From Ralstonia pickettii DTP0602 (GTDB lineage: Bacteria; Pseudomonadota; Gammaproteobacteria; Burkholderiales; Burkholderiaceae), in assembly GCA_000471925.1 (NCBI GenBank), contig CP006667.1, positions 1,240,001-1,304,000 on the forward strand: a DNA stretch of 64,000 nucleotides, written 5' to 3'. A model generated the notes under the pieces. The model did not search any database. It was not told the DNA's origin and saw only the letters and a program-made list of their open reading frames with translations. Made by a program: the position numbers and the translations under genes. Below are positions 25,039 to 43,312 of this stretch, one piece after another. Within the stretch, counting starts at the first letter, position 1. The number at the start of each line of letters is the position of its first letter.

Positions 25039-25061
25039 CCGGTTTTCAGGGGTTCCAGGGC

Positions 25062-26384: not shown

Positions 26385-26417
26385 CCGGTGGCCAAGGCCA
26401 CCGGAGGCCCTGTTTTG
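26385..26417 (+). terminator. Attenuator-like hairpin between binding protein and ATPase genes
   Basis: CCGGTGGCC at 26385-26393 and GGCCACCGG at 26396-26404 form a perfect inverted repeat, followed by a TGTTTTGT stretch at 26411-26418. It lies inside the operon, so partial termination would give more binding protein than membrane components. Confidence 0.6.
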
Positions 26418-26444
26418 TCCTTCATCCGAGCGCTTCCACTTCCC

Positions 26445-27215
26445 ATGTCAGATCTCATCCTGCAGACAACGCAACTGTCGAAGGCCTTCAGGGGCTTTAC
26501 GGCGGTCAGCGATGTCAACCTGCAAGTACGCCGCGGGTCGATCCATGCATTGATCGGGCCCAACGGCGCGGGCAAGACCACTTGCTTCAACCTGCTCACC
26601 AAGTTCCTGGAGCCGACCACCGGCACCATCCTATTCAACGGCATCGACATCACCCGCGAGAAGCCCGCGCAGATCGCGCGCCGCGGCGTGATCCGTTCCT
26701 TCCAGATCTCGGCGGTGTTCCCGCACCTGACGGTGATGGAGAACGTGCGCATCGGCCTGCAGCGCCAGCTTGGCACCGCGTACCAGTTCTGGCGCAGCGA
26801 GCGCTCGCTGAACGTGCTCAACGACCGCGCCATGGAGCTGCTCGAGCAGGTCGGGCTGACCGAGTTCGCGCACACCGTCACGGTGAACCTGCCGTACGGC
26901 CGCAAGCGCGCGCTCGAGATCGCCACGACGCTGGCGATGGAGCCCGAGCTGATGCTGCTGGACGAACCCACGCAGGGCATGGGCCATGAGGACGTGGACC
27001 GCGTCACGCAGCTGATCAGGAAGGTCTCGGCGGGCCGCACCATCCTGATGGTGGAGCACAACATGAGCGTGGTGTCGTCGATCGCGGACAAGATCACGGT
27101 GCTGCAGCGCGGCGCGATCCTGGCCGAGGGCCCTTACGCTGAAGTGTCGAAGGACCCGCGCGTGATGGAGGCCTACATGGGCACCGTCGACGCGGAACTG
27201 CAAGGCGCGCACTGA
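26445..27215 (+). CDS. ABC transporter ATP-binding protein, LivG family
   Basis: A 256-residue ATPase. It has Walker A GPNGAGKTT, the LivG-typical GVIRSFQISAVFPHLTVMEN segment, a signature-region helix VNLPYGRKRALEIATTLAMEP where the canonical LSGGQ is replaced by LPYGRKR as in many LivG proteins of aromatic-acid importers, Walker B LMLLDEPTQGMG and the switch His in MVEHNM. The ATG at 26445 begins the conserved fold; the frame extends upstream to 26373 but that would run into the hairpin. The LivF-type partner starts 10 bases downstream. Confidence 0.92.
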   Translation: MSDLILQTTQLSKAFRGFTAVSDVNLQVRRGSIHALIGPNGAGKTTCFNLLTKFLEPTTGTILFNGIDITREKPAQIARRGVIRSFQISAVFPHLTVMENVRIGLQRQLGTAYQFWRSERSLNVLNDRAMELLEQVGLTEFAHTVTVNLPYGRKRALEIATTLAMEPELMLLDEPTQGMGHEDVDRVTQLIRKVSAGRTILMVEHNMSVVSSIADKITVLQRGAILAEGPYAEVSKDPRVMEAYMGTVDAELQGAH

Positions 27216-27225
27216 GGGGCACGAC

Positions 27226-27951
27226 ATGACGACATCGAATACACCTGCCCTCGAAATCAAGGGCCTGGAGGCCTGGTACGGCGAATCGCACATCCTGCAC
27301 GGCGTGGACCTGACGGTGAACCGCGGTGAAGTGGTCACGCTGCTGGGCCGCAACGGCGCCGGTCGCACCACCACGCTGCGCGCGATCATGGGCCTGACGG
27401 GTGCGCGCAAGGGCTCGATCAAGGTCAATGGCCATGAAACCATCAGCCTGCCCACGCACAAGATCGCGCACTACGGCATTGGCTATTGCCCCGAAGAGCG
27501 CGCCATCTTCTCCAGCCTCTCATGCGAAGAAAACCTGATGCTGCCGCCCGTGCTCAAGGGCGCGGACACCAGCAAGGGCATGAGCGAGGCGGATATCTAC
27601 GAGATGTTCCCGAACCTGAAGGAGCGCCGCCAGAGCCAGGGCACGCGTCTTTCCGGCGGCGAGCAGCAGATGCTGGCGGTCGGGCGCATCCTGCGCACGG
27701 GTGCCAACCTGCTGTTGCTCGATGAAATCTCGGAAGGGTTGGCACCGGTGATCGTGCAGGCGCTCGCGCGCATGATCCTGATGCTCAAGCAGAAGGGGTA
27801 CACGGTGGTGATGGTGGAGCAGAACTTCCGCTTCGCCGCGCCGCTGGCCGACCGCTTCTACGTGATGGAGCATGGCAGCATCGTCGAGCGCTTCGCGGCC
27901 AGTGAGCTGCAGGCCAAGATGCCGGTGCTGCACGAACTACTTGGAGTGTGA
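27226..27951 (+). CDS. ABC transporter ATP-binding protein, LivF family, with Arg in Walker A
   Basis: A 241-residue ATPase paired with the preceding LivG-type protein. The P-loop reads GRNGAGRTT, so the nucleotide-binding Lys is Arg47. The remaining motifs look intact: LSGGEQQMLAVGRIL signature, Walker B LLLLDEISEGLAP (with Ile-Ser after Glu) and MVEQNF. The neighbour LivG has a normal Lys, so the heterodimer would keep at least one standard site. Its stop codon TGA overlaps a GTG, and the next gene's ATG follows at 27960. Confidence 0.92.
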   Translation: MTTSNTPALEIKGLEAWYGESHILHGVDLTVNRGEVVTLLGRNGAGRTTTLRAIMGLTGARKGSIKVNGHETISLPTHKIAHYGIGYCPEERAIFSSLSCEENLMLPPVLKGADTSKGMSEADIYEMFPNLKERRQSQGTRLSGGEQQMLAVGRILRTGANLLLLDEISEGLAPVIVQALARMILMLKQKGYTVVMVEQNFRFAAPLADRFYVMEHGSIVERFAASELQAKMPVLHELLGV

Positions 27952-27959
27952 GGCTGACG

Positions 27960-28850
27960 ATGCCCATTGAAATCTTCGGAATACCGCTGCCGGCATTGCT
28001 CTCGCAGGTCCTGCTCGGACTGGTCAACGGCGCGTTCTACGCCATGCTCAGTCTCGGCCTGGCCGTGATCTTCGGACTGCTGAACGTCATCAACTTCGCC
28101 CATGGCGCCTTGTTCATGCTGGGCGCGGTGCTGGCGTGGATGGGCACGACCTACCTGGGACTGTCCTACTGGGCGATGCTGGTGCTTGCCCCACTTGCCG
28201 TTGGCATCCTGGGCGTGGTGCTGGAGCGTCTGCTACTGCGGCGCATCTACAAGCTGGACCATATCTATGGCTTGCTACTGACGCTCGGTGTGACGCTGGT
28301 GGTGGAAGGTGTATTGCGCTCGGCCTACGGGGTCTCCGGCCTGCCGTACTCGACGCCGGAAGCGCTCTCCGGCGGGACAAACCTGGGCTTCATGATCCTG
28401 CCCAACTACCGCGCCTGGGTCGTCGGTGCATCGCTGTCGGTGTGCCTGGGTTCCTGGTTCCTGATCGAGAAGACCAGGCTCGGCTCCGTGCTCCGCGCGG
28501 GAACCGAGAACCCGAAGATCGTGGAGGCGTTCGGCGTCAATGTGCCGCTGCTGATTACGGCGATCTATGGCTTCGGGGTGGCGCTGGCCGGCCTCGCCGG
28601 TGTGCTCGCCGCGCCGGTCACGCAGGTTTCCCCGCTGATGGGGCAGAACCTGATCATCCTGGTGTTTGCCGTGGTGGTGATCGGCGGCATGGGTTCGATC
28701 CTTGGCGCGGTGCTGACCGGGCTCGGCCTGGGTGTCGTCGAGGGCCTGACCAGGGTGTTCTACCCGGAAGCCTCCTCGACCGTGGTGTTTCTCGTGATGG
28801 TCATCGTCTTGCTGTTTCGGCCTGCAGGACTGTTTGGTAAGGAAAAATGA
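27960..28850 (+). CDS. Branched-chain-type ABC transporter permease, LivH family
   Basis: This inner-membrane permease of 296 residues has about eight hydrophobic segments. LVNGAFYAMLSLGLAVIFGL followed by NVINFAHGALFMLGA is the LivH hallmark, and VVVIGGMGSILGAVLTGLGLG is the cytoplasmic EAA-like coupling loop. The ATG at 27960 is preceded by GAGG; a GTG at 27948 is an alternative. It overlaps the next gene by four bases (ATGA). Confidence 0.92.
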   Translation: MPIEIFGIPLPALLSQVLLGLVNGAFYAMLSLGLAVIFGLLNVINFAHGALFMLGAVLAWMGTTYLGLSYWAMLVLAPLAVGILGVVLERLLLRRIYKLDHIYGLLLTLGVTLVVEGVLRSAYGVSGLPYSTPEALSGGTNLGFMILPNYRAWVVGASLSVCLGSWFLIEKTRLGSVLRAGTENPKIVEAFGVNVPLLITAIYGFGVALAGLAGVLAAPVTQVSPLMGQNLIILVFAVVVIGGMGSILGAVLTGLGLGVVEGLTRVFYPEASSTVVFLVMVIVLLFRPAGLFGKEK

Positions 28851-29893
28851 TGAGCGGATACTTCTCCACCTCCCGTCTTGCCATGCCGGCCGGATCCGCA
28901 CCGGGCTCCGCCACGCGCGTGTCCAGATACCTTGGCATCCTGCTGCTGGCCATGCTGGTGCTGGCGCCCCAGGCGGGCGTCTACCCGGTGTTCGTGATGA
29001 AGATCCTTTGCTTCGCACTGTTCGCCGCGGCCTTCAACCTGCTGCTCGGCTTTACCGGCCTGTTGTCGTTCGGGCATGCCGCGTTCTTTGGCGGGGCTGG
29101 CTATGCAACCGGTTACGCGATGAAGACCTGGGGCGTTTCCGCGGAAGTCGGCCTGCTGGCGGGCGTCGCGACTGCCACGGTAGTTGGCTTGCTGATGGGC
29201 TCGCTCGCCATTCGCCGGCAAGGCATCTACTTCTCGATGATTACGCTCGCGCTGGCGCAGATGTTCTTCTTCGTGTGCCTGCAGACGCCGGCCACCGGCG
29301 GCGAGGACGGGATGCAGGGCATCCCGAGGGGCAGCCTCTTCGGCGTACTGCCGCTGTCCTCCGACATGACGTTCTACTACGTTGTCGTAGCGATCTTCGT
29401 GGCTGCCTTTGCGTTGATCGTGCGCGTCGTCCATTCGCCGTTCGGGCAACTGCTCAAGGCGATCAAGGAGAACGAGGCGCGTGCGGTGTCGTTGGGCTTT
29501 GACGCCAACCGTTTCAAGCTGCTGGCCTTTGTTCTGTCGGCGGCGCTGGCTGGCCTGGCGGGGTCGATAAAGGCGTTGGTGCTTGGCTTTGAGACGCTGA
29601 CGGATGTCCACTGGACTATGTCGGGGACGGTGATCCTGATGACGCTGGTGGGGGGCATGGGTACGCTGACTGGGCCGGTGATTGGCGCGCTGGTCATTGT
29701 CGTGCTGGAGAACAAGCTCGGCGATATCGGCGTCGGGCTGGCAAGCCTGACGGGGGTGGAATGGTTCGCGACGCTGGGCGAGTCGGTGACGCTGGTGACC
29801 GGGGTGATCTTTATCCTGTGCGTGCTTGCGTTCCGCCGCGGGATCATGGGGGAAGTGCAGGCGTGGATGCGTCGTGCGCCAAGACAGGGCTAG
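28847..29893 (+). CDS. Branched-chain-type ABC transporter permease, LivM family
   Basis: The second permease of the importer, 348 residues, with multiple membrane segments. FNLLLGFTGLLSFGHAAFFG and LAIRRQGIYFSMITLALAQM are the characteristic LivM segments, and VGGMGTLTGPVIGALVIV is the coupling loop. It is the last gene of the operon; a repeat-borne hairpin follows about 93 bases after the stop codon. Confidence 0.92.
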   Translation: MMSGYFSTSRLAMPAGSAPGSATRVSRYLGILLLAMLVLAPQAGVYPVFVMKILCFALFAAAFNLLLGFTGLLSFGHAAFFGGAGYATGYAMKTWGVSAEVGLLAGVATATVVGLLMGSLAIRRQGIYFSMITLALAQMFFFVCLQTPATGGEDGMQGIPRGSLFGVLPLSSDMTFYYVVVAIFVAAFALIVRVVHSPFGQLLKAIKENEARAVSLGFDANRFKLLAFVLSAALAGLAGSIKALVLGFETLTDVHWTMSGTVILMTLVGGMGTLTGPVIGALVIVVLENKLGDIGVGLASLTGVEWFATLGESVTLVTGVIFILCVLAFRRGIMGEVQAWMRRAPRQG

Positions 29894-30016: not shown

Positions 30017-30312
30017 AAAAGCGCGTCGCCTGCGGCTGGCCTTCATCAAGGGGGCGGCGTTGGTGGTTCGGGGCGGTGGTGATTTCCGTTTCTATGTGGT
30101 CAGCCGTTCGAGCCTGCTACGCCAGGTGAGTGAGTGACAGTGCCTTGCGAAGGCCCACTTTTGAACGATCCCCATGCAGGGCGTAGGCCGCCTGCTGACT
30201 GGGGCATCGCGTCAACGCCTACGGCTGCGCTGCGCGCGGCGCATCAGCTGGGGCGAGGCGGCGGCGCCGGGAAGTGCGTCGCTGCGCTCGCACAGCGCCG
30301 ACGCACGGGCGC

Positions 30313-30885
30313 GTGCTCAAGAACAATCGCTGGAGTAATAGGCACAGGACCGATGCTGCCGACGCCAAGGCCATCTGGACCGCGGCGCAGCTGCCCGGCA
30401 TGCCTGTCGTTGCCCCCAAGAACGAGTCGCAGCAGTGCGTGCTCAGCCTGCACGCACTGCGCCAGTTGCGCGTGAAGATGCGCACCATGCTGGTCAACCA
30501 GTTGCGGGGCACGCTGTTTGAATTCGGCGTCCACTTCCCGCGCGGACTGCGCACCGGCCTGCATGAAATCGTCGAGCACATGGCCGACATCGAGCAGAGC
30601 GTGCCGCCCATGCTGTTCGAGTTCGTGCACGAACAATTGCAAAGCATCGAACGGCTCGATCAGGAGATTGCCCGCCTCGACCAGCGTATCAACGCCTGGG
30701 GCCGGCAGAACCAGGCTTGCCAGACCATCCTCGCTATCCCGGGCATCGGCATGCACACCGCCACGGCCAATGTTGCCACCATTGGCGATGTCCACACCTT
30801 CAAGTCCGGCCGGCAACTGGCGGCCTATCTTGGCTTGGTGCCCAAACAAACCGGCACCGGCGGCAAGGTCTGGCTGGGCGCATGA
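30313..30885 (+). pseudogene. IS110-family transposase remnant, truncated at both ends
   Basis: The frame encodes the middle of an IS110/IS1111 transposase. RTDAADAKAIWTAAQLPGM corresponds to the end of the N-terminal DEDD domain, followed by the long helical linker, then the C-terminal domain's start IPGIGMHTATANVATIGDV and FKSGRQLAAYLGLVPKQTG. About 70-80 N-terminal residues are missing, and the frame stops right after GGKVWLG where intact proteins continue for about 80-100 residues with the catalytic Ser. It cannot be an active enzyme. An inverted repeat pair of 60 bp lies outside it on both sides. Confidence 0.8.
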
Positions 30886-31302: not shown

Positions 31303-32292
31303 TCAATCGATTGTGAGAACGTACTTGCCAGCGACCTGCCCCGATGCCAGTTTGGTCAGCGCTTCCCCAGCACGGCCCAGCGGCAGCACGCCGGCAATCG
31401 GCGGCCGGATAGCCCCTTGCTCATACAGGCTGAAGAGCTTTTCCTGCACCGCCTGGACCTTCCCGGGTTGCCGCTCCCGATAGTCGCTCCACTGCAGCCC
31501 GCCTACGCTGATGTTCTTGACCAGCAGGTAGTTGGCCTTGATCTCCGGGATGCGGCCGGCGGCAAAGCCGATGACCACCGCACGACCGCACCATGCCATC
31601 GCGCGCAAGGCCGCATCGAACACGTCGCCGCCAAGCGTGTCGAGCAGAACATCCGCACCGTGCCCGCCCGTTGCGGCGCGCACCTGGTCGCGCAGGGCAT
31701 CCCGCAGGTTCGGCGCCGCCAGGTCGATGACAGCGTCCGCGCCCATCGCCATGACGGCCTTCGCATGTTCGGCGCCGCTGACGCCGGTGAGCGCGGTACC
31801 ACCAAGTCCCTTCACGATCTGCAGCGCCGCAGAGCCGACGCCACCGGCAGCGCCGGTCACCAGTACCGTTTCACCTTCCTGGTATCCCCCTCGTTCGACA
31901 AGAGCGAAGTATGCAGTCTGGTAGACGAGCCCCATCGCCGCGGCATCTTCGAACGACATGCTGTCCGGGATCCGGAAACAAGCGTTCTCGCTGGCACTGA
32001 CGAGTTCCGCGTACGCACCGTATTCGAGTTGCGCCACCACGCGATCGCCGGGACGCAGCTTCCTGACATCGCTGCCGACCGCGCGCACGACTCCTGCTGC
32101 ATCCTTGCCCGGTGCAAAAGGGCGCTCGGGCAGTATCTGGTACTTGCCGCGCACCACCAGCAGGTCGGGATAGTTGACCGCGGCGGCGCGGACTTCAATC
32201 AGGACACCATCGGCAGGGAGCACCGGATCCGGCAACTCGCCAATGGACAGATGCTCGGGTTCATTGAACTCCTGGATAACGATAGCTTTCAT
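31303..32292 (-). CDS. Zinc-free quinone oxidoreductase/enoyl reductase, MDR superfamily
   Basis: A 329-residue medium-chain reductase without the structural-zinc Cys cluster. N-terminal [20 protein letters not shown], the [18 protein letters not shown] catalytic-domain segment and the nucleotide-binding [20 protein letters not shown] (about residue 146 on) are visible. It probably uses NADPH to reduce a quinone or an activated alkene. It is the last of ten consecutive minus-strand genes and starts 2 bases after the stop of the CoA-transferase, so it probably belongs to the operon and could act on an unsaturated CoA intermediate (inference). Confidence 0.88.
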
Positions 32293-32294
32293 AT

Positions 32295-33407
32295 TTATGG
32301 TTCTAGAAGATGGTTGTCGGCGCCAAGGGCGGGCGAGGCCTGCTCGGGGCTAACGTTGCGGAACGCCGCGTCCAACGGAACGGGCAACGCGGACAATGTG
32401 GTGCCGGCTGCGGTCCTCACTGTCCGGTCAAACAGATGCCGTGCAGCGAAATGCGGGTCCGCCGCCGCCTCCTCCAGGCTGACCATGCGGCTGGTGCAAA
32501 CGTCCTGTCCCGCGAAGCGGTCCATCCAGTAGTCAGCTGTATGCTTTGCCACGGCGGCGGCGACAGCCTCGGTCGCCTCTGCCGGCGCGAGCCGATCGAG
32601 TGCCGCGGCGTCCAGTCCGATCAGCGTGGTGAAGTTGCCCCAGAACTTTTCTTCGATCGGTGCCGCGGCGAGGAAAGCGCCATCGGCGGTCCGGTAGACC
32701 TGATACCGCGGCGAGCCCCCAGTCACAAGGTCCGAGGCGGGGCGGGGCCACTGGCCCCGGGCACCGGCGCCGAGTCCCCAGTACTGGAACGCAAACAGGT
32801 TGTCGGCCATGGCGATGTCCAGATGGATGCCTTTGCCGGTCTGCTCGCGTTGGCGCAGGGCCAGCAGGATATTGATCATGGCCGGATACGCGCCGCCGGC
32901 AATGTCGGCGATCAGCGCCGGCGGCAGCCCCGGCTTGCCGTCAGCGCCGGCGGTCAGCGACAGCATGCCGGCAGCGGCGACGTAATTCAGGTCATGCGCG
33001 GCCTCGTTCGCCCTCGGGCCGTGCTGGCCAAAGCCCGTGATCGAGCAGTACACCAGCCGCGGATTGATCTTCGCGACATCCGCATAGCCAAGCCCCAGCC
33101 GGTCCATCACACCGGGCCGAAACTGCTCAAGCAGCACGTCGGCTTCCTGGATCAGCGGCACAAGGCTGTCGATCGCAGCCGGCGATTTCAGATCGATGGC
33201 GACGGACTTCTTGCCGCGATTGAGGAGCACGAAGTTGGTACTGTCCGCGTCCGCCTTGGGCTCGTACGATCGCATTTCGTCGCCGCGGCCGGGTCGCTCG
33301 AACTTGATGACCTCGGCCCCGGCCTCGGCCAGCAGCAGGGAACACAGCGGCCCGGGCAGCAGGGTGCTGAAGTCCAGCACCTTCACCCCAGTCAATGGTT
33401 GGGTCAT
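32295..33407 (-). CDS. CoA-transferase, CaiB/BaiF (class III) family
   Basis: A 370-residue class III CoA-transferase that would move CoA between two acids. [34 protein letters not shown] is the family N-terminal block (residues 6-39), [12 protein letters not shown] follows, and [15 protein letters not shown] holds the catalytic Asp. The ATG at 33407 overlaps the stop of the upstream gene as ATGA and starts the conserved block. Together with a second member at 40137 and the ligase at 37646 it gives this operon three possible CoA-activation routes. Confidence 0.9.
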
Positions 33408-34060
33408 GGCGTCCCTGCCTTGGCGCGTTCGGCGGCTACGCGGGCCCGGCGAGCGGGTGCATAGGGTTCCTGGCCCAGCGCCTCGTAGAGCGCCTGGGTA
33501 ACAGCGTAGTGCTGCGCCAGCCCGGTGCGCTCGAGCAGCGAGATCGGGCCTTCCGGATAGCCGAGGCCCAGGCACAGGGTCTTGTCCAGGTCCGCGGCGC
33601 TGGCCAGTTTTTCGTCCAGACGCCGCAGTGCCGCGTTGAAGTAGGGCCTGATCAGCCGGTCGACGATGCGGCCGGGAAAGTCATTGCAGACCGCCACCAC
33701 CAGGCCACTGGCCTGGAATGCCGCCTTGGCAGCCTCGATCGCCGCTGGATCCGTGCCCGGTTGCCGCACCAGTTCAACCAGCGGGCTGGGATCGGCATTG
33801 CCCAGCCGGAAGCGGGCGAAGCCAACGACATTCGACCCTTCCAGGCCGCGGCTTTCGCCGGTGTGGAAACCCAGACACTCGGTATCGAGCTCAATGGCCA
33901 CGAAGGTGCGGGCCTCATGGCCGGTACCGCAGGCATAGGCTGCGCCGGCGCTGGCGCCGAGGTAGACCAGGCCCTCGCCGTCCGCAGTGGATTGTTCCAG
34001 GAAGGCGTGCGGGGCAGGGAAGGAGCGGCTCTCGCCGGCTCGAACGATCTCGTATCGCAT
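33404..34060 (-). CDS. 3-hydroxyacyl-CoA dehydrogenase C-terminal-domain protein (second half of a split PaaH-like enzyme)
   Basis: A 218-residue protein lacking a Rossmann nucleotide-binding domain. Its second half, CNDFPGRIVDRLIRPYFNAAL then LDKTLCLGLGYPEGPISLLERTGL, is a 3HCDH C-terminal domain. Its first half resembles the linker region of long (about 500-residue) PaaH proteins. With the 291-residue neighbour at 34062 it adds up to the length of one PaaH. The start codon follows the neighbour's TGA after a single base and lies in another frame, so the arrangement is a gene fission or a frameshift relative to fused relatives. It may assemble with its neighbour into one enzyme. Confidence 0.78.
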   Translation of the reverse strand: MRYEIVRAGESRSFPAPHAFLEQSTADGEGLVYLGASAGAAYACGTGHEARTFVAIELDTECLGFHTGESRGLEGSNVVGFARFRLGNADPSPLVELVRQPGTDPAAIEAAKAAFQASGLVVAVCNDFPGRIVDRLIRPYFNAALRRLDEKLASAADLDKTLCLGLGYPEGPISLLERTGLAQHYAVTQALYEALGQEPYAPARRARVAAERAKAGTP

Positions 34061-34061
34061 A

Positions 34062-34937
34062 TCAGGCTCCGAACATCTTGGTATCGCCGTAGACGTGAAA
34101 ACCTCTGCCGGTCTTCTTGCCAAGGCGGTTGGCGGCGATCATGCGCCGTACCAGCGGCGGGCAGGCGGCGCGCGGCTCATGGGTCAGGCCATGCATGGCC
34201 TCGCACAGCAGCTTCTGGGTATCCATGCCGACCAGGTCGAGCAACTCGAGCGGGCCCATCGGATAGCCGAGCGCGGTCTTGATCGCCAGGTCGATATCGG
34301 CGGGCTCGGCCACGCCTTGCTCAACCAGCCTGATGGCGTCGTTGTTGAACGGGATCAGGAAGTAGTTGAGGATGAAGCCCGGTGTGTCCTGCGTGGTCAC
34401 AGGCTTCTGTCCCATGGCTTCGGCAAAGGTCCAGGCACGCCGGAAGGTTTCGTCGGATGTCGCCAGCCCCGGCGACATCTCGATCAGCTTCATCAGTTGC
34501 GCCGGCAGGCAGAAGTGCATGCCGACGAAGCGGTCCGGCCGGCCTGAGCCGCCGGCGATCTCGGTGATGGAGATCGTGGAGGTGTTCGACGCAAAGATGG
34601 TGCGCTCCGGGCAGACCTGGTCGAGCGCCTGGAACAACTGGTGCTTGACCGCGAGATCCTCGAACACGGCCTCGATGACGATGTCGCACGCCGCAAGGCT
34701 GGCCAGGTCGGTGGTGCCTTGCCACCGGTCCAGCGCGGCGGCGGCAGCGCCCGGCGGCAGCTTGCCGCGTTCCTCCGATTTCTTCAGGAATGCCTCGGTC
34801 TGGCCTCTGGCGCGGTCAAGCGCCTCTTGCCTGGCATCGAACACGATGGTCCGGAATCCGGCGCGGGCCGCCACGATGGCGATCCCGGCCCCCATGGTGC
34901 CGGCGCCGGCCACGCCGACGGTTTGGATAGTTGTCAC
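34062..34937 (-). CDS. 3-hydroxyacyl-CoA dehydrogenase, NAD-binding (Hbd/PaaH N-half)
   Basis: A 291-residue enzyme oxidising a 3-hydroxyacyl-CoA. The N-terminal VGVAGAGTMGAGIAIVAARAG is the NAD site; ASNTSTISITEIAGG and FVGMHFCLPAQLMKLIE (with His where family members have HFFNP) follow, and the C-terminal domain has TPGFILNYFLIPFNNDA and ALGYPMGPLELLDLVGMD. The HFF-N-P motif reads HFCLP here, a visible deviation in the active-site strand. The end KKTGRGFHVYGD is a normal C-terminus. It lies between the acyl-CoA dehydrogenase and the C-half protein. Confidence 0.88.
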   Translation of the reverse strand: MTTIQTVGVAGAGTMGAGIAIVAARAGFRTIVFDARQEALDRARGQTEAFLKKSEERGKLPPGAAAAALDRWQGTTDLASLAACDIVIEAVFEDLAVKHQLFQALDQVCPERTIFASNTSTISITEIAGGSGRPDRFVGMHFCLPAQLMKLIEMSPGLATSDETFRRAWTFAEAMGQKPVTTQDTPGFILNYFLIPFNNDAIRLVEQGVAEPADIDLAIKTALGYPMGPLELLDLVGMDTQKLLCEAMHGLTHEPRAACPPLVRRMIAANRLGKKTGRGFHVYGDTKMFGA

Positions 34938-34946
34938 CGTTGTCTC

Positions 34947-36113
34947 CTACTTCTTCAAGAAACTGCGTCCGATCAGCTGGCGGTGCACCTGGTTCGTGCC
35001 CTCCCAGATCTGCGTGATCTTGGCGTCGCGCATCAGCCGTTCGACGCGATAGTCGTTGCAGTAGCCGTAGCCACCCAGAAGCTGCACGGCATCCGTCGTG
35101 ATCCGCATGGCGGCATCCGATGCGCGCTGCTTCAGCATCGAGGCCTCCACGCCGAAGTCTTTCTCGCCGGCGTCGACCATCTCGCCGACGCGCCATAGCC
35201 ACGATTCGCACAGCGCCAGTTCCGAGGCGAGGTCGGCCAGCATGAACTGGATGCCCTGGAATTCCAGGATCCGCTTGCCCGATTGCCGGCGCTCGTTGAT
35301 ATACGCAACGGCATCCTCGAAGGCCGCGCGGGCGATGCCCAGCGCATGCGCAGCGACGCTGGGCCGCGAGCGGTTCAGCGAGCCGAACAGGATGCGCAGG
35401 CCATCCCCGGGATTGCCGATCAGGTTGGCGCGCGGCACGCGGCAGCCATCGAATGCCAGGCTGGCGGTGCTGGAGGCGCGTGTGCCCATCTTGTGCTCCG
35501 TGCCCAGCACGCGCAGCCCCTCGGTGCCTTTCTCCATGATCAGCACCGAAATGGCTGCCTTCGGATCGCTGATCTCCGACCACTTGCCGAACAGCAGGTA
35601 CTGGTCGGCGACGTCGCCGTTGGTGATAAAGGTCTTGCCACCGTCGATGACGATGTCGTCGCCGTCAGGGGTAAAGCTGGTGCGCATGCCGGTCGCGTCG
35701 GAGCCGGCCGACGGCTCGGTGATCGCCAGTGAAGCGAGACCGCCCTCTGCAATCCGTGGCAGCAGACGGGCCTTCTGTTCCTCGCTGCCGTATTCGATCA
35801 GCGGCTTGATGGCATGGAAGTTTGTCGCCCAGACGATGCCGGTCGAGGCGCACGCTTTGGAGATCTCCCGCACGCAAGCGAGGTAGCAGAGATAGGAGAG
35901 TTGAGCGCCACCGTAGGCGTCGGGGATGAACATCGCGTTCAGCCCCAGCGCATTGATCGCCTGCACGTTCTCCCAAGGGAAGGCGCCAGTGCGGTCATAC
36001 TCGGCCGCGCGCGGTGCGATCTGCGTTTCACAGAGATGCCTGACGCTGTCGAGGATCATCCGCTCTTCATCGGAGAGGGGCAGGCGGGCGTCCAGTCGTT
36101 CCAGAATGTTCAT
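34947..36113 (-). CDS. Acyl-CoA dehydrogenase
   Basis: A 388-residue acyl-CoA dehydrogenase of normal length. LSDEERMILDSVRHLCETQIAP opens the N-terminal helical domain, ITEPSAGSDATGMRTSF is the FAD/substrate beta-domain motif, TFITNGDVADQYLLFG follows, and DAVQLLGGYGYCNDYRVERL with ITQIWEGTNQVHR contains the FAD contacts and the catalytic Glu. The upstream in-frame extension to 36497 overlaps the SDR gene and is rejected. In the operon it would introduce the double bond used by the hydratase at 36873. Confidence 0.92.
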   Translation of the reverse strand: MNILERLDARLPLSDEERMILDSVRHLCETQIAPRAAEYDRTGAFPWENVQAINALGLNAMFIPDAYGGAQLSYLCYLACVREISKACASTGIVWATNFHAIKPLIEYGSEEQKARLLPRIAEGGLASLAITEPSAGSDATGMRTSFTPDGDDIVIDGGKTFITNGDVADQYLLFGKWSEISDPKAAISVLIMEKGTEGLRVLGTEHKMGTRASSTASLAFDGCRVPRANLIGNPGDGLRILFGSLNRSRPSVAAHALGIARAAFEDAVAYINERRQSGKRILEFQGIQFMLADLASELALCESWLWRVGEMVDAGEKDFGVEASMLKQRASDAAMRITTDAVQLLGGYGYCNDYRVERLMRDAKITQIWEGTNQVHRQLIGRSFLKK

Positions 36114-36127
36114 GCGTGCATCCTTGA

Positions 36128-36872
36128 TCAAAGGGCCATGCCCTGGCCACCGTCGACATAGAGCGTCTCGCCGGTCAGGAAACGTCCGGGCAACTGGAAC
36201 AGCATGGCGACAAGCCGGCCAATGTCGGCGGCTTGCCCCGGTCCGCCGGCCGGAATGCGTTTCTTCAGGAACGCTTGCAGCGCCTCCCCGTTCAGCTCCT
36301 CCCGGTTCAGGTCCGTCTCGATATACCCGGGCGCGATATTGAGGACGCGGATGCCGTTGCGGGCCCATTCCACGGCGAGGCAGCGCGAGATCGCACCCAC
36401 GGCGGCCTTGGATGCGCAGTAGGCGGCGTTGCCCTTGACGCCCAGCTTGTCGTAGAACGATCCGATATTGACGATCAGCGACGAACCGCTCTCGCACAGG
36501 TAGGGGTAGGCGGCCTGGCTGGCGAGCAGCACCGAGGTGGCATTGGTCGTCATCACCCGCTCGAAGTCTGCAATCGGAAAGGTTGCGGACGCGCCTTGCA
36601 GATGGATGCCCGCGTTGTTGACCAGGCCCACCACCGGCTTGCCGAACATTGCCGGCACCGCGGCGAACGCAGCCTGGACCGAGTCCGGGTCAGTGATATC
36701 GCAGCGCCTGGCGCGCACCCTGCTTTGCGCTGCTTCGTCCAGCCCTTGCAGATCGGGAAGCTCGCCGGAGCGGGACAGGCATGCCACGTGCAAGCCGGCG
36801 CTGGCAAGCTCGATTGAGATGGATGCACCGATACCGCGGCTGCCGCCCGTCACGATGACCGTACCGTTGATC

Positions 36873-36880
<8 letters not shown>
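36128..36880 (-). CDS. Short-chain dehydrogenase/reductase
   Basis: A 250-residue SDR with cofactor motif VTGGSRGIGASI, NNAGIHLQG, the catalytic Ser in IVNIGSFYDKLG and YCASKAA with Tyr and Lys, and C-terminal GRFLTGETLYVDGGQGM. It is smaller in resemblance to BadH than the gene at 20153 (it lacks NNAGWD and SSDAGRVGSSGE), but it takes the same place in an otherwise parallel gene set and could oxidise a ring hydroxyl. It overlaps the hydratase gene by 8 bases. Confidence 0.88.
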
Positions 36881-37643
<763 letters not shown>

Positions 37644-37645
37644 GT

Positions 37646-39328
37646 TTATGCTCCCGCGACGGCCCGTGCCCGATACCGGACCGCCGTCGGCTTCAGTTGT
37701 CCGCGCAGGGTCATCTCGACCAGTTCGCGTTTGAGAATCTTCCCGCTGGCAGTCAGCGGGAAGCTGTCGAGTCCGAGGAAGTACTCGGGCATGTCGTACT
37801 TGGACAGGCCGCAGCCCGCGAGGTGTTCCAGCATGTCGCTCGCCGGCAGCTCCTGCCCGGCGCGCACGATGACCGCCAGGCAGACCTTCTCGCCCAGTCG
37901 CTCGTCCTGCACCGGGTAGGCCGCGGCGCGTTCCACCTTGGGATGGCGCATGGCGAGTTCCTCGATCCGTGCCGGGTGGATGTTGTGTCCGCCCCGGATG
38001 ATCAGGTCCTTCTTGCGCCCGACGATCACCACGCAGCCGTTCTCATCGACGATGCCGAGGTCCCCACTCATAAACCAGCCATGGATGTTGAACGAGGTCT
38101 CGGTAGCGACCTGGTTGCTGAAGTACCCGAGCATCAAAAGGCCGCCGCGCCCGCCGATCTCGCCGACTTCGCCGACTTCGGCTTCTTCGTCGATGTTGTC
38201 CTGCTTCCAGAGCTTCACCTCGTAGCCCCGGCACGCGCGACCGCAGGTGGACACGATGGTGTCCTGCGTGTCGGTCGGAACGGTGTAGTTGTGCGACCCG
38301 TTCTCGGTCATGCCATACACGTTCTGCGGCGTCACGCCCAGGCTGACGAACTTCTGCGCGACTTCGCGGGGAATGGCCGCACCGGCCATGTAGAAGGTGC
38401 GGACCTCGCCCAGCGACGTCATGTTGCGGTCGCGTAGCGCCTGCAGGATGTCCATCGCATGGGTGGGTACGCCCATCACGTAGGTCGCGCCCGTTTCAAG
38501 GATCCAGTCGAGCGCGTGCTTGCCGGCGCGCAGGTTGGTCATCACCATCTCCAGCCCGGCCACCAGCATCTGCTCCATGGCGACCGTCGCAATGTGGTGG
38601 CTCATGGGGCTGAGTGTCAGCAGCGTGGTATCGGCCGTGTGGCCCCAGTCTTCGACCAGCGCACGGCCATTCGCCAGCAGCGTGTTGTCGCTGTGCATGA
38701 CGCCCTTGGGCAGGCCGGTTGTGCCCGATGTGAAGGCGAGATAGACGATCTTGTCCGGATTCAGGTCCGGGGTGGAAAGGGCAGAGGGGGGCTGCCTGTC
38801 CGGGAACGGCAGGGCGCCCTCCGGCAGTGCGGCATCGCCGGCAGCCGGATTGGGCAGCGCAAGCACGCAGGCCAGCGTCGGGATATCCGCCACCCTGGCG
38901 AAGATGGAGTTGCGATCGGCGTCGGCGCCATAGCCCGGCATCGCGAACAGCGCGCGGCACTGGATGCGGTTCAGCAGCGTGCAGATCTCGTCGACAGTGT
39001 AGTTCTGGTGCAGCGACGGGCAGCAGACGTAGCCATTGCGCGAGCACGCCAGGAAAATGATGGTCGCATGCACGACGTTGGGCAGCCAGATGCCGACGCG
39101 GTCGCCGGGCTTCAGGCCCTGGCGATGGAGCGCTTCGGCGACGCTGTCGACCCAGTCGACCACTTCCCGCCAGGTCAGCCTGACATCGGCATCGCGCAAT
39201 GCGCAGGAGGTGGGACGCTCGCGCGCATGGCGCCGGGCCAGCGTGTACAGCGTCTCCTGCTGCCAGATGCCCGATAAATAGTAGTCCCTCGCATTCTGCG
39301 GGTTGTGAAGGGTCAGGATGTTCTGCAT
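37646..39328 (-). CDS. AMP-forming acyl-CoA synthetase
   Basis: A ligase of about 560 residues. It has the P-loop LAFTSGTTGLPKGVMHSDN, YGMTENGSHNYTVPTDT (an unusual insertion-like GSHNY after the MTE core), GDLGIVDENGCVVIVGRKKD, LIIRGGHNIHPARIEE with His in place of the common Glu (GGxNI), and the C-terminal catalytic Lys in LTASGKILKREL. The start is uncertain between ATG at 39328 and an in-frame GTG at 39337. The 'HNIHPARIEE' type motif is found in ligases for benzoate-like and cyclohexane-type acids, but the substrate is not determined. Confidence 0.88.
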   Translation of the reverse strand: MQNILTLHNPQNARDYYLSGIWQQETLYTLARRHARERPTSCALRDADVRLTWREVVDWVDSVAEALHRQGLKPGDRVGIWLPNVVHATIIFLACSRNGYVCCPSLHQNYTVDEICTLLNRIQCRALFAMPGYGADADRNSIFARVADIPTLACVLALPNPAAGDAALPEGALPFPDRQPPSALSTPDLNPDKIVYLAFTSGTTGLPKGVMHSDNTLLANGRALVEDWGHTADTTLLTLSPMSHHIATVAMEQMLVAGLEMVMTNLRAGKHALDWILETGATYVMGVPTHAMDILQALRDRNMTSLGEVRTFYMAGAAIPREVAQKFVSLGVTPQNVYGMTENGSHNYTVPTDTQDTIVSTCGRACRGYEVKLWKQDNIDEEAEVGEVGEIGGRGGLLMLGYFSNQVATETSFNIHGWFMSGDLGIVDENGCVVIVGRKKDLIIRGGHNIHPARIEELAMRHPKVERAAAYPVQDERLGEKVCLAVIVRAGQELPASDMLEHLAGCGLSKYDMPEYFLGLDSFPLTASGKILKRELVEMTLRGQLKPTAVRYRARAVAGA

Positions 39329-39344
39329 GATGGTCACCCGTACT

Positions 39345-40124
39345 TCAATGTCCGAACTTCGAGGGGTCGGGCTTGCGGCGCTCGGCGAAGGCGGCTGCCA
39401 GCTCGTCGTGCTCGTTCGATTCGAGGTAGCCGCGCAACAGCAGGTCGTGCGCCATCCGGGACAGGCCGCTCACGCCGCCGTGGCGCGCATTGAAGGCGCT
39501 CTTCAGCGAGGCCAGCGCAAACGCGCCGCGCTCGGCGACCTCCAGGGCATACTCCCGGGTCGCCGCGCGCAACTGGTCATCGGGGACGACACGGTTGATC
39601 AAGCCGATCTCGACCGCCTCCTGAGCGGTGATCTTCGGGTTGCGGTACCAGATGTCCTTGGCGCGCTTCTTTCCGACCAGGTCCTCCAGGTACCACGTGC
39701 CGTAGCCAGCGTCGAAGCTGCCGACCATCGGGCCCACCTGGCGGAAGATCGCGGACGCCTTCGCGATGGTCAGATCGCAGACGACCTGCAGCACATTGCC
39801 CCCGCCGACCGCAAAGCCATTGACCGACGCAATGACGGGCTTTTGCAATCGGTCGATGCTCTCGTACATCTCAAGCGTCGGCAGCACCCCGGCATAGAGC
39901 GTGGTGTCCTGCATGCCGTCCTTGCGGCCACCGGTGCAGAAGAACTTGTCGCCGGCACCGGTGATCACGATCACGCGCGTACGGGTTTCACGGCGGATCG
40001 CGTTGATGCAATCGCGAATCTCGTGGCACATGGTCTCCGTGAACATGTTGCCGTCATCCGGCCGGTTCAGCGTGATCGTGCCGATGGGGCCGTCTTCTTC
40101 GTAGAGGATTTCCGAGTAGCTCAT
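39345..40124 (-). CDS. BadI/MenB-like C-C bond hydrolase or cyclase, crotonase family
   Basis: A 259-residue crotonase of the MenB/BadI branch, not a hydratase. It carries FCTGGRKDGMQD (compare CTGGDQ in BadI), FAVGGGNVLQVVCDL and FRQVGPMVGSFDAGYGTWYL, with Ser136 and Asp138 in the positions of the MenB/BadI catalytic pair. GKKRAKDIWY and AVEIGLINRVVPDDQL continue the likeness to BadI. In an operon with dehydrogenase, hydratase and hydroxyacyl dehydrogenases but no thiolase, hydrolytic cleavage of a cyclic 2-ketoacyl-CoA is the most likely job. A naphthoate synthase role is unlikely because no menaquinone genes are near. Confidence 0.85.
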   Translation of the reverse strand: MSYSEILYEEDGPIGTITLNRPDDGNMFTETMCHEIRDCINAIRRETRTRVIVITGAGDKFFCTGGRKDGMQDTTLYAGVLPTLEMYESIDRLQKPVIASVNGFAVGGGNVLQVVCDLTIAKASAIFRQVGPMVGSFDAGYGTWYLEDLVGKKRAKDIWYRNPKITAQEAVEIGLINRVVPDDQLRAATREYALEVAERGAFALASLKSAFNARHGGVSGLSRMAHDLLLRGYLESNEHDELAAAFAERRKPDPSKFGH

Positions 40125-40136
40125 TTTGTCTCCTGG

Positions 40137-41366
40137 TTAGACGATTTCTGAGTCGATGAGGCCTGCGATACACGTCGCGGACATGGCAAGACGTTCCGCG
40201 AGAATGCGTTCGGTGTCCTGCCCGAGGGCGGGGGGAGGGGTGCGGTAGACGGCGCTGGCGCCGTCGAAGCCGACGCCGAGGCCAACCTGCGGGACACGCC
40301 CCGCGGCACCCTGGCCGGCAAAGAACATGCCGGCGTCGCGCAACGGCGCGTCGTCGACCAGTTGGTCGATGCTGTTGATCGGGCCGGCCGGGATCCGGTG
40401 CCTGGCGAACAGCGCCAGCCAGTGTTCGCGCGGCTGGGTAGCCAGGAGCTCGGCAATGGCGGCGACGATCGTGTCTCGTGCCTGGCGACGCTTCGCATTG
40501 GTTTCAAAACCGGCCTGCTTGCCGTAGGCGGGGTGTTCAACCGCGTCCCAGAAGCGCTGCCAGATGGCGTCGTTGCCCAGGCCGAGCGTGATGGGGAAGT
40601 CGGCGGTCTCGAACACCTGGTAGATGGCAATGACCGAGTCGGTGCCGCCCGAGCGCATCGGCGGCTCACCGGACCCGAGGTACGGGACGATGCGCGGTGC
40701 CATGAAGCGCGTGGCGGTGGCAACCATCGATACATCGACCTGCTTGCCGGCACCGGTGCGTTGCCGCTCGAACAGTGCGGCGAGCGTGGCCATGGCAATA
40801 TCCTGGCCCGCCAGCAGGTCGGCCGCGGGGGTGCCGACCTTCTGTGCGGGCCGGCCTGCCTCACCGGTCAGATGCATCACGCCGGAGTAGCCTTCGGCGA
40901 TCAGGTCATAGCAGGGCAGGTCGGCACGCTCGCCCTGCAGGCCGAAGCCGGTCACGGACACATGGATCAGCGCCGGGTGAATCGCCTTGAGCGTGGCGTA
41001 GTCCAGCCCGAGCTTTTCCTGCACCCGCTGCGTCGTATTCAGGACGACGACATCGGCCTGGCGCACCAGTTGATGGGCGATGCCGCGACCCTCGGCCCGG
41101 GTCAGGTCGACCGTCATGCTCTGCTTGTTGCGGTTCATGCTCAGGAACCACAGCGACTCGCCATCCAGGAACGGCGGGCCCCAGCTGCGCGTATCGTCGC
41201 CGCCGGCGCGCTTTTCGATCTTGATGACTTCCGCGCCAAGATCGGCGAGCAGCAAGGTGCCATAGGGGCCAGCGACTGAGGTGGTGAAGTCCAGCACGCG
41301 TACGCCTTCGAGGCATCGCATTCCAGGACCCTGGGGCATCAGCGGGAGTGTATTCAGGGCGTCCAT
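40137..41366 (-). CDS. CoA-transferase, CaiB/BaiF (class III) family, first gene of the sigma-54 operon
   Basis: A class III CoA-transferase of about 409 residues. GVRVLDFTTSVAGPYGTLLL and ADLGAEVIKIEKRAGGDDTR form the N-terminal block, followed by MNRNKQSMTVDLTRAEGRGI, and the catalytic Asp lies in GKQVDVSMVATATRF. Several starts are possible (41366, 41339, 41321); I chose 41366, 35 bases after the sigma-54 promoter, but the conserved block begins only near the last one. It shares fold and motifs with the gene at 32295 without being a close copy. It is transcribed divergently from the activator gene. Confidence 0.88.
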   Translation of the reverse strand: MDALNTLPLMPQGPGMRCLEGVRVLDFTTSVAGPYGTLLLADLGAEVIKIEKRAGGDDTRSWGPPFLDGESLWFLSMNRNKQSMTVDLTRAEGRGIAHQLVRQADVVVLNTTQRVQEKLGLDYATLKAIHPALIHVSVTGFGLQGERADLPCYDLIAEGYSGVMHLTGEAGRPAQKVGTPAADLLAGQDIAMATLAALFERQRTGAGKQVDVSMVATATRFMAPRIVPYLGSGEPPMRSGGTDSVIAIYQVFETADFPITLGLGNDAIWQRFWDAVEHPAYGKQAGFETNAKRRQARDTIVAAIAELLATQPREHWLALFARHRIPAGPINSIDQLVDDAPLRDAGMFFAGQGAAGRVPQVGLGVGFDGASAVYRTPPPALGQDTERILAERLAMSATCIAGLIDSEIV

Positions 41367-41400: not shown

Positions 41401-41415
41401 GCAAAGGGCGTGCCA
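41401..41415 (-). promoter_or_regulatory. Consensus sigma-54 (-24/-12) promoter of the ten-gene operon
   Basis: On the minus strand the sequence reads TGGCACG-CCCT-TTGC (41415 down to 41401), an exact match to the RpoN consensus TGGCACG-N4-TTGC. Transcription would start near 41389, shortly before the first CoA-transferase gene. An RpoN-dependent activator gene lies immediately across the intergenic region. Confidence 0.85.
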
Positions 41416-41421: not shown

Positions 41422-41436
41422 TGGCATGCGCTTTGC
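41422..41436 (+). promoter_or_regulatory. Divergent sigma-54 promoter reading toward the activator gene
   Basis: TGGCATG-CGCT-TTGC (41422-41436) matches the RpoN consensus with one substitution and correct spacing. It lies only six bases from the minus-strand promoter, so the two divergent sigma-54 holoenzymes would occupy adjacent DNA. The activator start codon is 200 bases downstream. Confidence 0.65.
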
Positions 41437-41581
41437 AGTGATCCCTTGCGAGTTCCCGAGACCCAATTCCCGCTTGGCCTGGAAGCCGCCATGGGCCAGC
41501 ATCGTTGCGGCAGACAGCCGTGGCAGGACTTAGAATTGGACTGTATTCGTGCTGTACTCGAGCGTAGTCGGAAAGGCACTT

Positions 41582-41600
41582 GTGTCGTCGGCGAAGACAC
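41582..41600. promoter_or_regulatory. Candidate activator-binding palindrome upstream of the sigma-54 operon
   Basis: Arms GTGTCGTC (41582-41589) and GAAGACAC (41593-41600) pair at 7 of 8 positions around GGC. CGAAGACA (41592-41599) is identical to a half-site at 25012-25019 upstream of the ABC importer. The site is about 170 bases upstream of the minus-strand promoter, in the normal enhancer range. Confidence 0.55.
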
Positions 41601-41635
41601 TTGGCTTCCGGCAAGGCTCACCTTGTGGTGGAGAC

Positions 41636-43312
41636 ATGAAACGAGAATCGGAAGGCATCCTCGTCCTGGACAACGAGGGCAAGACGACATTTGCAAGCGG
41701 ACTGGGCCGCGACACGCTGGTCTCCGGTTCGCTCAGCCGCATGTGGCAGAACCGTGCCCGCGTTCCCGTCAAGCGGCTTTCCGCCATGACGGAACTGGAA
41801 CGCCCGCTGACGGTAGCGGCCATTCCTACGCGCGATGCCGTCTGCTTCCTGATCTTTGCCGTGCAGGAAGCCGACGAACTGACGGAATTCCTGGCCAGCG
41901 TGGATTCGGCCGAGGACATCCTCAGGCACTTTGTGACCGACCCCTACAAGGCCATGGTGGTGGTCGATACCGCGGGCAAGATCACCTACATGAGCCCCGT
42001 CCATGAGCGCTTCTTCCGGCTCAAGCATGGCGAGGCAATCGGCCGTCCGGTGACCGAGGTCATCGAGAACACCAAGCTCCAGGAGGTAGTGAAGACTGGC
42101 AAGGCGCAGGTCGCACAGCTGCAGGAGATGAATGGCGTCACGCGCGTCGTATCCCGCCTGCCGATCTTCGACAGCAACAAGCGGCTGGTGGCCGCCATCG
42201 GGCAGGTGATGTTCAAAGGGCCGGAGGCGATGCGGGAGCTGACCGGCGAGCTGGCGCGCGTCAAGCAGGAGCTGGACTTCTACAAGCGCGAGCTCTCAGG
42301 CATCCGCAATCGCAGTTACGGACTGGACCAGATTGTCGGCAGCAGCGATGCGGTACGCCGGCTCAAGGAGGACATCCTGCGGGTCGCGCCGCTCGACGTG
42401 CCGGTCCTGTTGGCCGGCGAGAGCGGCACGGGCAAGGAGATGGTCGCCCATGCCATCCATATGCTGAGCCCCCGCAGTGACAAACCGCTGATCCTCGTCA
42501 ATGCGGCGGCGATGCCCCCGAATCTCGTGGAAAGCGAGTTGTTCGGCTATGAGCCCGGGGCGTTTACGGGGGCGGACCGGAAGGGGCGGAAGGGCAAGTT
42601 CGAGGCCGCAGATACCGGCACCATGTTTCTGGATGAAATCGGCGACATGCCGATCGACATGCAGGTGAAGCTGCTGCGCGTGCTGCAGGACGGGCAGTTC
42701 GAGCGCATCGGCGGCGAACGGGCCCGGCATTCCGATTTCCGGCTGATTTCAGCCAGCAATCGTGACTTCAAGTCCATGATCGCCAGCTCGACGTTCCGGC
42801 TGGACCTGTTCTACCGGATCAGTGCGGTCACCTTGCGCCTGCCCGCGCTGCGCGATCGCCTTGAGGACATCCCGGAACTTGCTGACACCTTCCTTGAGGC
42901 ATTTGCGTCGCGCCACGGTGCCCCCAAGAAGGCCATTTCCGAGTCGGCCATCCGCTACCTGCAGTCTTGCGCCTGGCCGGGCAATATCCGGCAGTTGCAG
43001 CACGCGATCGAGCGTGCGGCGATCTTCTGCGATGGTCCTGCGTTGTCCATTGCCGACTTCGGCAGCCTCGAAGGTGCCGACCAGCCGCCGGGCAGGCGCC
43101 CGGCAGGCACCGAAAGCCTGGCCGGAAAGGGCAAGGCGGATATCCGCGAGGCCAAGGAACGGGTGGAGTGCGAGCTGATCCTCGAGGCCATGCGGCGCAC
43201 GGGTGGCAACAAGAAGCGCGTGGCGGAAGAGCTCGGTATCTCCCGCTCTTATCTCTACAAGCGGTTGAGCATGATGGAGGAGGCTCGCGATGACGAGCCG
43301 GCCTCCCGCTGA
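41636..43312 (+). CDS. Sigma-54-dependent transcriptional activator (PAS, AAA+, Fis-type HTH)
   Basis: A 558-residue bacterial enhancer-binding protein. A PAS domain lies at about 93-200 (AMVVVDTAGKITYMSPVHERF), followed by a helical linker at 200-222. The AAA+ domain has Walker A GESGTGKE (261-268), the sigma-54 contact loop GAFTGA (308-313) and Walker B TMFLDEIGD (329-337). The C-terminal HTH is around RTGGNKKRVAEELGISRSYLYKRL. No receiver domain is visible, so it probably senses a ligand or CoA intermediate through its N-terminal region and is not a phosphorelay partner. The ATG at 41636 follows GGTGGAG. Its divergent neighbour is the RpoN-promoted catabolic operon, the obvious target. Confidence 0.93.
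   Translation: MKRESEGILVLDNEGKTTFASGLGRDTLVSGSLSRMWQNRARVPVKRLSAMTELERPLTVAAIPTRDAVCFLIFAVQEADELTEFLASVDSAEDILRHFVTDPYKAMVVVDTAGKITYMSPVHERFFRLKHGEAIGRPVTEVIENTKLQEVVKTGKAQVAQLQEMNGVTRVVSRLPIFDSNKRLVAAIGQVMFKGPEAMRELTGELARVKQELDFYKRELSGIRNRSYGLDQIVGSSDAVRRLKEDILRVAPLDVPVLLAGESGTGKEMVAHAIHMLSPRSDKPLILVNAAAMPPNLVESELFGYEPGAFTGADRKGRKGKFEAADTGTMFLDEIGDMPIDMQVKLLRVLQDGQFERIGGERARHSDFRLISASNRDFKSMIASSTFRLDLFYRISAVTLRLPALRDRLEDIPELADTFLEAFASRHGAPKKAISESAIRYLQSCAWPGNIRQLQHAIERAAIFCDGPALSIADFGSLEGADQPPGRRPAGTESLAGKGKADIREAKERVECELILEAMRRTGGNKKRVAEELGISRSYLYKRLSMMEEARDDEPASR

Follow-up and report, generated by a model that had tools for sequence, protein, structure and literature searches.

What would a row of ten acyl-coenzyme A (CoA) genes do that holds no thiolase, and what would take the thiolase's place? 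The question is raised by an operon of Ralstonia pickettii DTP0602 that lies at 31303 to 41366 of a stretch of 64,000 nucleotides (contig CP006667.1, positions 1,240,001 to 1,304,000), which is called here the window. On balance, we lean towards a reading in which its genes, g1 to g10, would break down an alicyclic carboxylic acid by a CoA-dependent route that needs no oxygen; the ring of the acid, probably of the cyclohexane or cyclopentane type, would be opened hydrolytically by the product of g2. The ten genes are on the minus strand and run from 41366 to 31303, with gaps, in order, of 12, 16, 2, −8, 14, 9, 1, −4 and 2 bp when computed from the likeliest start codons. All open reading frames were confirmed at the coordinates that the initial annotation, an earlier reading of this DNA, had assigned them. 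The tightly spaced and overlapping ten-gene operon that it described is thus borne out by frames, coordinates and gaps of −8 to +16 bp, and the families that it named agree with the family hits (CoA_transf_3 twice, crotonase, AMP-binding and the parts of a 3-hydroxyacyl-CoA dehydrogenase (HCDH), among others). Since the block recurs in other genera and the catalytic residues that were checked are kept across it, we regard the operon as beyond chance.

The argument turns on g2. Its family matches, of which the best 25 of 72 families were listed, include PRK07396 (237.9 bits), BadI (219.2 bits) and MenB (208.9 bits), every one under its cut-off. In the cluster of open reading frames to which g2 belongs, Tyr77, Gly131, Ser136 and Asp138 are kept in 75/75 members and Tyr233 in 74/75. 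These positions align with Tyr97, Gly156, Ser161, Asp163 and Tyr258 of Escherichia coli MenB, which we take, in numbering as in role, to be its active site. Both glutamates of the hydratases are absent from g2 in the alignment and are retained in g4, so that g2, with the Tyr, Gly, Ser, Asp and Tyr kept and the Glu pair gone, has the marks of the MenB/BadI-type branch of the crotonases. Within this branch it stands apart: GGR (in 73/75 cluster members) and FRQ (in 75/75) replace the GGD and FGQ of the aligned MenB and BadI. Furthermore, E. coli MenB is 50–53% identical to three BadI-type sequences and 39–41% identical to four proteins of the g2 family, which therefore places g2 outside the BadI/MenB pair. 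MenB and g2 thus have active-site positions in common, and MenB, on the other hand, closes a ring in menaquinone synthesis. Over 50 loci, g2 is the most conserved protein of the operon, with a median identity of 82%, followed by g6 (76%) and g7 (73%).

The other enzymes likewise retain the catalytic residues that were checked, in g1, g3 to g7 and g9; these were counted over open reading frame clusters that include a second copy of the block in the same genome (L008). Asp154 of g1 is kept in 54/55 members, with one gap, and Asp139 of g9 in 45/45; both are presumably the catalytic Asp of class III CoA-transferases. With PF02515 and this Asp, g1 and g9 are the two class III enzymes that had been proposed for the operon. 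The nearest NCBIfam model of g1 is the succinate-glutarate CoA-transferase (NF052585), and the scores of g1 (280.5 bits) and g9 (175.5 bits) are both below its cut-off of 750. The ligase g3 has Lys208 in 73/74 and Lys530 in 71/74 members, the remainder being gaps; its best solved relatives are aryl-AMP ligases, and it scores 257.2 bits against the AliA cut-off of 792.3 (TIGR03208). Glu110 and Glu130 of the hydratase g4 are found in 65/65 and 64/65 members (one gap), Tyr154 and Lys158 of g5, a short-chain dehydrogenase/reductase (SDR), in 54/54, and Glu371 of the acyl-CoA dehydrogenase g6 in 62/64 (two gaps). For g6, the models for acryloyl-CoA reductase (345.7 vs 640 bits), cyclohexane-1-carbonyl-CoA dehydrogenase (310.5 vs 650 bits) and AliB (TIGR03207; 143.1 vs 575.35 bits) all fall short.

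The HCDH is split in two. His141, Glu153 and Leu144 of g7, in the motif HFCLP, are kept in 54/54 short cluster members, with 15 long members excluded; HFCLP also occurs in two fused g7–g8 proteins, HFFNP in four full-length PaaH-like proteins, and nine others have no pattern match. In two loci (L097, L099) g7 and g8 match a single open reading frame, and in two more (L104, L105) one HCDH gene of ~500 aa takes their place. Against the PaaH-type model PRK08268, which describes a single chain with a cut-off of 508, the split parts score 311.1 (g7) and 66.0 bits (g8). Taken together, the families support the initial annotation in its set of enzymes, which is self-contained: a ligase, an acyl-CoA dehydrogenase, a hydratase, a hydroxyacyl-CoA dehydrogenase and a hydrolase of the retro-Claisen type.

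How might these parts work in sequence? The acid would be activated by g3 with ATP, or CoA would be moved onto it by g1 or g9. A 1-ene-carboxyl-CoA would then be formed by g6 and hydrated by g4, and the ring hydroxyl would be oxidized by g7 and g8 or, for the other stereochemistry, by g5. The resulting cyclic 2-oxo-carboxyl-CoA would be hydrolyzed by g2 to an open dicarboxylic mono-CoA ester, from which the CoA-transferases could hand the CoA to new substrate, or within which they could move it. The operon would be induced by its sigma-54 activator, and the adjacent ATP-binding cassette (ABC) transporter would probably import the acid. The functional unit probably includes the activator and the transporter, both of which are outside 31303 to 41366 (Table 1).

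Table 1. Operon genes, promoter elements and neighbouring features, in window coordinates
Feature	Coordinates	Strand	Evidence
g1, class III CoA-transferase (409 aa)	40137..41366	-	PF02515, 394.4 bits
g2, MenB/BadI-type crotonase-fold protein (259 aa), predicted ring-opening hydrolase	39345..40124	-	PRK07396, BadI and MenB matches
g3, AMP-forming acyl-CoA ligase (560 aa)	37646..39328	-	PF00501
g4, enoyl-CoA hydratase (256 aa)	36873..37643	-	PF00378
g5, SDR dehydrogenase (250 aa)	36128..36880	-	PF13561
g6, acyl-CoA dehydrogenase (388 aa)	34947..36113	-	PF00441, PF02771
g7, 3-hydroxyacyl-CoA dehydrogenase, NAD-binding part (291 aa)	34062..34937	-	PF02737, PF00725
g8, C-terminal part, same dehydrogenase type (218 aa)	33404..34060	-	PF00725
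g9, second class III CoA-transferase (370 aa)	32295..33407	-	PF02515
g10, PIG3-type NADPH:quinone oxidoreductase (329 aa)	31303..32292	-	TIGR02824, 236 bits vs cut-off 296.8
Sigma-54 -24/-12 promoter TGGCACGCCCTTTGC	41401..41415	-	Upstream of g1; 10/10 consensus positions
Possible second sigma-54 site TGGCATGCGCTTTGC	41422..41436	+	9/10 positions; faces activator gene; putative function
Divergent sigma-54 activator, PAS, AAA and Fis-type helix-turn-helix domains	41549..43312	+	PF00158 (218.3 bits), PF02954, PF00989
IS110-family transposase fragment	30274..30885	+	PF02371
ABC transporter ATPases and permeases, four genes	26373..29893	+	Urt/Liv-type, below cut-off for three genes scanned
ABC transporter substrate-binding protein	24978..26345	+	Peripla_BP_6, 348.6 bits; probable true start at ~25.1 kb
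Linked BadI cluster: OYE-type reductase, ligase, BadH-like SDR, BadI, hydratase, 596-aa acyl-CoA dehydrogenase	16439..24509	+	

The promoter region suggests how the operon could be switched on. The element TGGCACGCCCTTTGC, one of two sites with 10/10 positions when both strands of the window were scanned, stops 35 nt short of the ATG of g1 and adjoins the gene of a divergent activator, whose true start is probably near 41636, judging from the open reading frame start in a relative (L023). This arrangement of a −24/−12 element beside an activator gene is that of a sigma-54-dependent operon, and we infer that the activator switches the operon on. A site of at least 9/10 stands in 23 of the 26 loci that hold the activator family (12 at 10, 11 at 9); among the three misses, the activator is several kb from g1 in L022 and at the far end of the block in L076 and L080. 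In the control, 241/4000 random stretches of 570 nt have such a site, and the chance rate in the activator loci is somewhat above this because 750 nt were scanned there. Loci with g1 and without a member of the activator open reading frame cluster have a site of at least 9/10 in 5/31 cases, and one of these 31, L023, does carry activator pieces.

The operon is not confined to this genome: the search in other genomes that the initial annotation had suggested found it in many. Of 349 confirmed loci the best 80 were retained, and 50 of these, which extend from 3 kb before to 9 kb after g2, were used to count gene presence at hand-set identity thresholds. All ten genes are present in 18 of the 50 loci, with identical order in 17. 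Apart from g2 (50, by selection), g3 was found in 47, g6 in 44, g4, g5, g7 and g8 in 43 each, g1 in 40, g9 in 32 and g10 in 26. Relatives of g2 at 79–98% identity occur in contigs titled Beta-, Alpha- and Gammaproteobacteria and in one titled Terriglobia. Three bins titled Bordetella parapertussis or Klebsiella pneumoniae (L051, L054, L077) have operon proteins that group with betaproteobacterial bins, and their titles may thus be wrong. In whole genomes, this one included, g2 was found at E 1e-90 in 12/60 of the genus, 11/299 of the family and 1/369 of the class sample, the single match in the last being this genome itself. Relatives of the operon are carried on plasmids (12 records) as well as chromosomes; given this carriage and the patchy spread, we take the operon to be accessory.

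Some variants bear on the chemistry. Two loci (L037, L096) are without g3, g5 and g6 and retain g1, g2, g4, g7 and g8 together with a further CoA-transferase match; since the ligase is gone and CoA-transferases are kept, CoA transfer may replace it there, a reading that is weakened by another ligase-like gene 7 kb downstream in L037. Beside L037, one gene was read by eye as IpdA-like and has no NCBIfam match at E 1e-20, and a racemase (N-acetyl-D-Glu racemase, 436.6 bits) was judged unrelated. As to the absence of thiolase that had been claimed at the outset, it holds for the ten genes, but near the block some relatives have a thiolase (5/90 loci), a PaaH-like gene of full length, or the two together. 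Here and for the satellite genes below, the 90 loci are L008, the 80 and nine plasmid loci, with L108 excluded as near-identical to L102.

A number of observations weigh against the proposed pathway. The BadI and MenB scores of g2 are below the cut-offs of these families (467.6 for TIGR03210 and 342.7 for TIGR01929), and an AlphaFold2 model of g2, built from 14 close relatives, is uninformative, with a mean pLDDT (predicted local distance difference test) of 41.5. The two hydroxyacyl dehydrogenases, g5 and g7 with g8, would be redundant if they did not differ in the stereoisomer or the step on which they act. With g10 missing from 24/50 and g9 from 18/50 loci, these genes may not be part of the core. 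Three Burkholderia loci (L049, L056, L074) retain only g2, g3, g5 and g10, and L088 only g2; because they keep so few genes of the block, the chemistry around g2 can differ. Finally, L008 has no sigma-54 site of at least 8/10 within 500 nt before g1. As a separate observation, genes that by eye resemble those for a crotonase, an SDR, an acyl-CoA dehydrogenase and a thiolase lie near the block in the three Burkholderia loci.

The second copy, L008, is a whole block at C1:2033262-2043359, 0.76 Mb away, with 78–94% protein identity. In a tree of four joined proteins, made by a quick method and with four forks open, the window copy goes with Cupriavidus necator A5-1 and UYPR2.512, and L008 with other Cupriavidus; strain A5-1 holds one copy of each kind. 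A recent duplication was rejected, since the two copies are in different clades, each with other Cupriavidus.

Among described systems, the closest in logic is the bad-ali pathway for cyclohexane carboxylate (AliA, AliB, BadK, BadH and BadI) of Rhodopseudomonas palustris and Aromatoleum sp. CIB, in the latter aerobic too, which also gathers in one cluster a ligase, an acyl-CoA dehydrogenase, a hydratase, a dehydrogenase and a hydrolase that opens the ring (PMC9795900). The operon differs in that g3, g6 and g2 score below the cut-offs of AliA, AliB and BadI, in having an HCDH besides the SDR and two class III CoA-transferases, and in its sigma-54 element and activator where strain CIB has the BadR repressor. 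Three further systems were compared by description. Geobacter metallireducens uses a succinyl-CoA:cyclohexane carboxylate CoA-transferase and then a cyclohexane-carboxyl-CoA dehydrogenase (PMC9795900), but goes on by 1,4-dehydrogenation to the dienoyl-CoA. In the thn operon (ThnO, ThnP) of anaerobic naphthalene degradation, a cyclohexane dicarboxylate is acted on by a CoA-transferase and an acyl-CoA dehydrogenase ahead of the cleavage of its ring (PMC11659651); in contrast to g1 and g9, ThnP is a family I transferase, and the pathway is anaerobic, with ring reductases. EchA20 is a crotonase-superfamily hydrolase of a cyclic CoA ester, from steroid ring D, that clusters with MenB (PMC5380842), but its partners in the breakdown of steroid remnants are IpdF, IpdC and IpdAB, and no such set was seen among g1 to g10. 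No IpdAB or EchA20 model was found among the matches listed for the ten proteins (for g2, the best 25 of 72), and IpdE2 appears weakly for g6; since some of these listings stop at the best 25 matches, some room is left for a steroid route. In the open-licence literature no description of the operon was found, hence no substrate from it, and likewise no pathway with exactly this gene set, in line with the initial annotation; the one relevant passage of a transcriptome paper on root exudates deals with a different CoA-transferase.

Could the same genes serve a substrate without a ring? The ligase, dehydrogenase, hydratase and HCDH are ordinary parts of beta-oxidation, the HCDH is PaaH-like, and the solved relatives of g3 noted above would fit an arylalkanoic acid. 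In such a beta-oxidation of acyclic or arylalkanoic acids, g2 would hydrolyze an open-chain beta-ketoacyl-CoA in the thiolase's stead, giving acetyl-CoA together with a free acid, the latter to be reactivated by the CoA-transferases. We consider this unlikely: a thiolase would serve on an acyclic substrate and save the thioester, and MenB, BadI and EchA20 all make or break a ring (PMC5380842). If a ring is to be opened, there might also be two. The window holds a second ring cluster at 16–24 kb, whose logic the operon had been said to repeat with different parts, and this is supported; its BadI (20917-21747) scores 471.3 bits, above the cut-off, and its BadH-like SDR, with 349.0 bits, is below its own (431.2). 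On plasmid pRK1-1 this cluster, at 72.5% DNA identity over 5.8 kb, and the transporter are syntenic with the operon, and in 6/12 same-genus genomes with g2, this one included and with pRK1-1 and pMTS2, identified from coordinates, as two of the six cases, a BadI copy of 85–100% identity lies within 32 kb of g2. The operon and the BadI cluster might thus act in series on a bicyclic acid, with one hydrolase per ring and a CoA-transferase shifting CoA between carboxyls, as ThnP of anaerobic naphthalene degradation does within a molecule (PMC11659651, where such intramolecular transfer is described for family III enzymes too). Nevertheless, this is the least probable of the rival routes in our view. 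Each cluster appears complete alone, and 23 of 38 other genomes or bins with g2, chosen by hand from the 80 loci and some of them drafts, are without BadI at E 1e-100, which argues that the operon does not depend on the BadI cluster.

A third alternative extends the alicyclic acid route that we favour: the operon would be a lower funnelling module, and neighbouring enone-forming and enone-reducing enzymes would first make saturated ring acids from oxygenated rings. We regard this as possible, if tentative. Upstream of the block, at 30% identity and half coverage, stand a PRISE-type enone reductase in 9/90 loci, an enzyme of flavin adenine dinucleotide (FAD) of the flavocytochrome c/KSTD type in 8/90 and an AroQ-like dehydratase in 4/90, which hints that the operon is supplied with cyclic enones as intermediates. 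A difference is also seen between the two copies of this genome, as L008 is without a sigma-54 site and has, in its vicinity, genes for a TctC protein, a GMC oxidoreductase and a FAD enzyme of the flavocytochrome c/KSTD type. On the other side, only a minority of loci have such satellites, those of L025 and L102 are identical and thus not independent, and in the 64 kb of the window none of the PRISE-type reductase, the FAD enzyme and the AroQ-like dehydratase was found. The AroQ-like satellite passes one subfamily cut-off (133.5 vs 130) and misses that of the aroQ equivalog (121.8 vs 169.85); in L102 (10539-10982) it stands in a catabolic gene row and has a three-residue loop gap relative to its best solved relative, and is perhaps a dehydratase of another substrate. 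Because it occurs in just 4/90 loci, a quinate route is a lead only.

The surroundings of the operon are partly shared with its relatives. On pRK1-1, too, a transporter lies next to the operon, and the DNA of the window matches it at 79% identity over 26445-29835; for the transporter at 24978-29893, the identity is 79–83%. The substrate-binding protein is 57.6% identical to its counterpart beside the operon in Azospirillum and has a relative of at least 30% identity in 25/90 operon loci. After g10, several Cupriavidus relatives (pRK1-1, L023, L025 and L026) have a full-length PaaH-like gene where the window has the IS110 fragment; a terminator-like site after g10 proved no better than shuffles (two in the stretch vs 1.4 expected). 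A further BadI-type locus of this genome (L009, C2:1985000-2003000) encodes a protein 74% identical to the window BadI; a BadH-like (56%), a ligase-like and a dehydrogenase-like match are its neighbours. Beyond the activator, the window encodes an Lrp/AsnC regulator (43325-43795) and a single-chain indolepyruvate ferredoxin oxidoreductase (43936-47451, 1559.9 bits), and in L023 and L024, too, there is a match upstream of the operon. A major facilitator superfamily transporter at 50377-51762, nearest to the aromatic acid/H+ symport family (380.5 bits against a cut-off of 418.55), has a counterpart of 78% DNA identity next to the pRK1-1 BadI cluster.

What would the operon mean for the hydrolases to which g2 is related? 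At its boldest, and as a speculation to which we give little credence, g2 could be the founder of a branch of its own, the third in function, among the MenB/BadI hydrolases. It would serve a widespread route by which aerobes would cleave the rings of oxygenated acids (hydroaromatic or enone-derived) with no aromatic intermediate on the way, and in the dicarboxylate left by ring opening CoA would be shifted by a class III transferase. If the alicyclic acid route set out here is true, a function would be given to a conserved block, on plasmids and chromosomes, that bears generic names ('enoyl-CoA hydratase-related', 'naphthoate synthase', 'CoA transferase') in the records examined, and the few hydrolases that cleave alicyclic rings independently of oxygen would gain a new branch, of relevance to the turnover of naphthenic, terpenoid or hydroaromatic acids.

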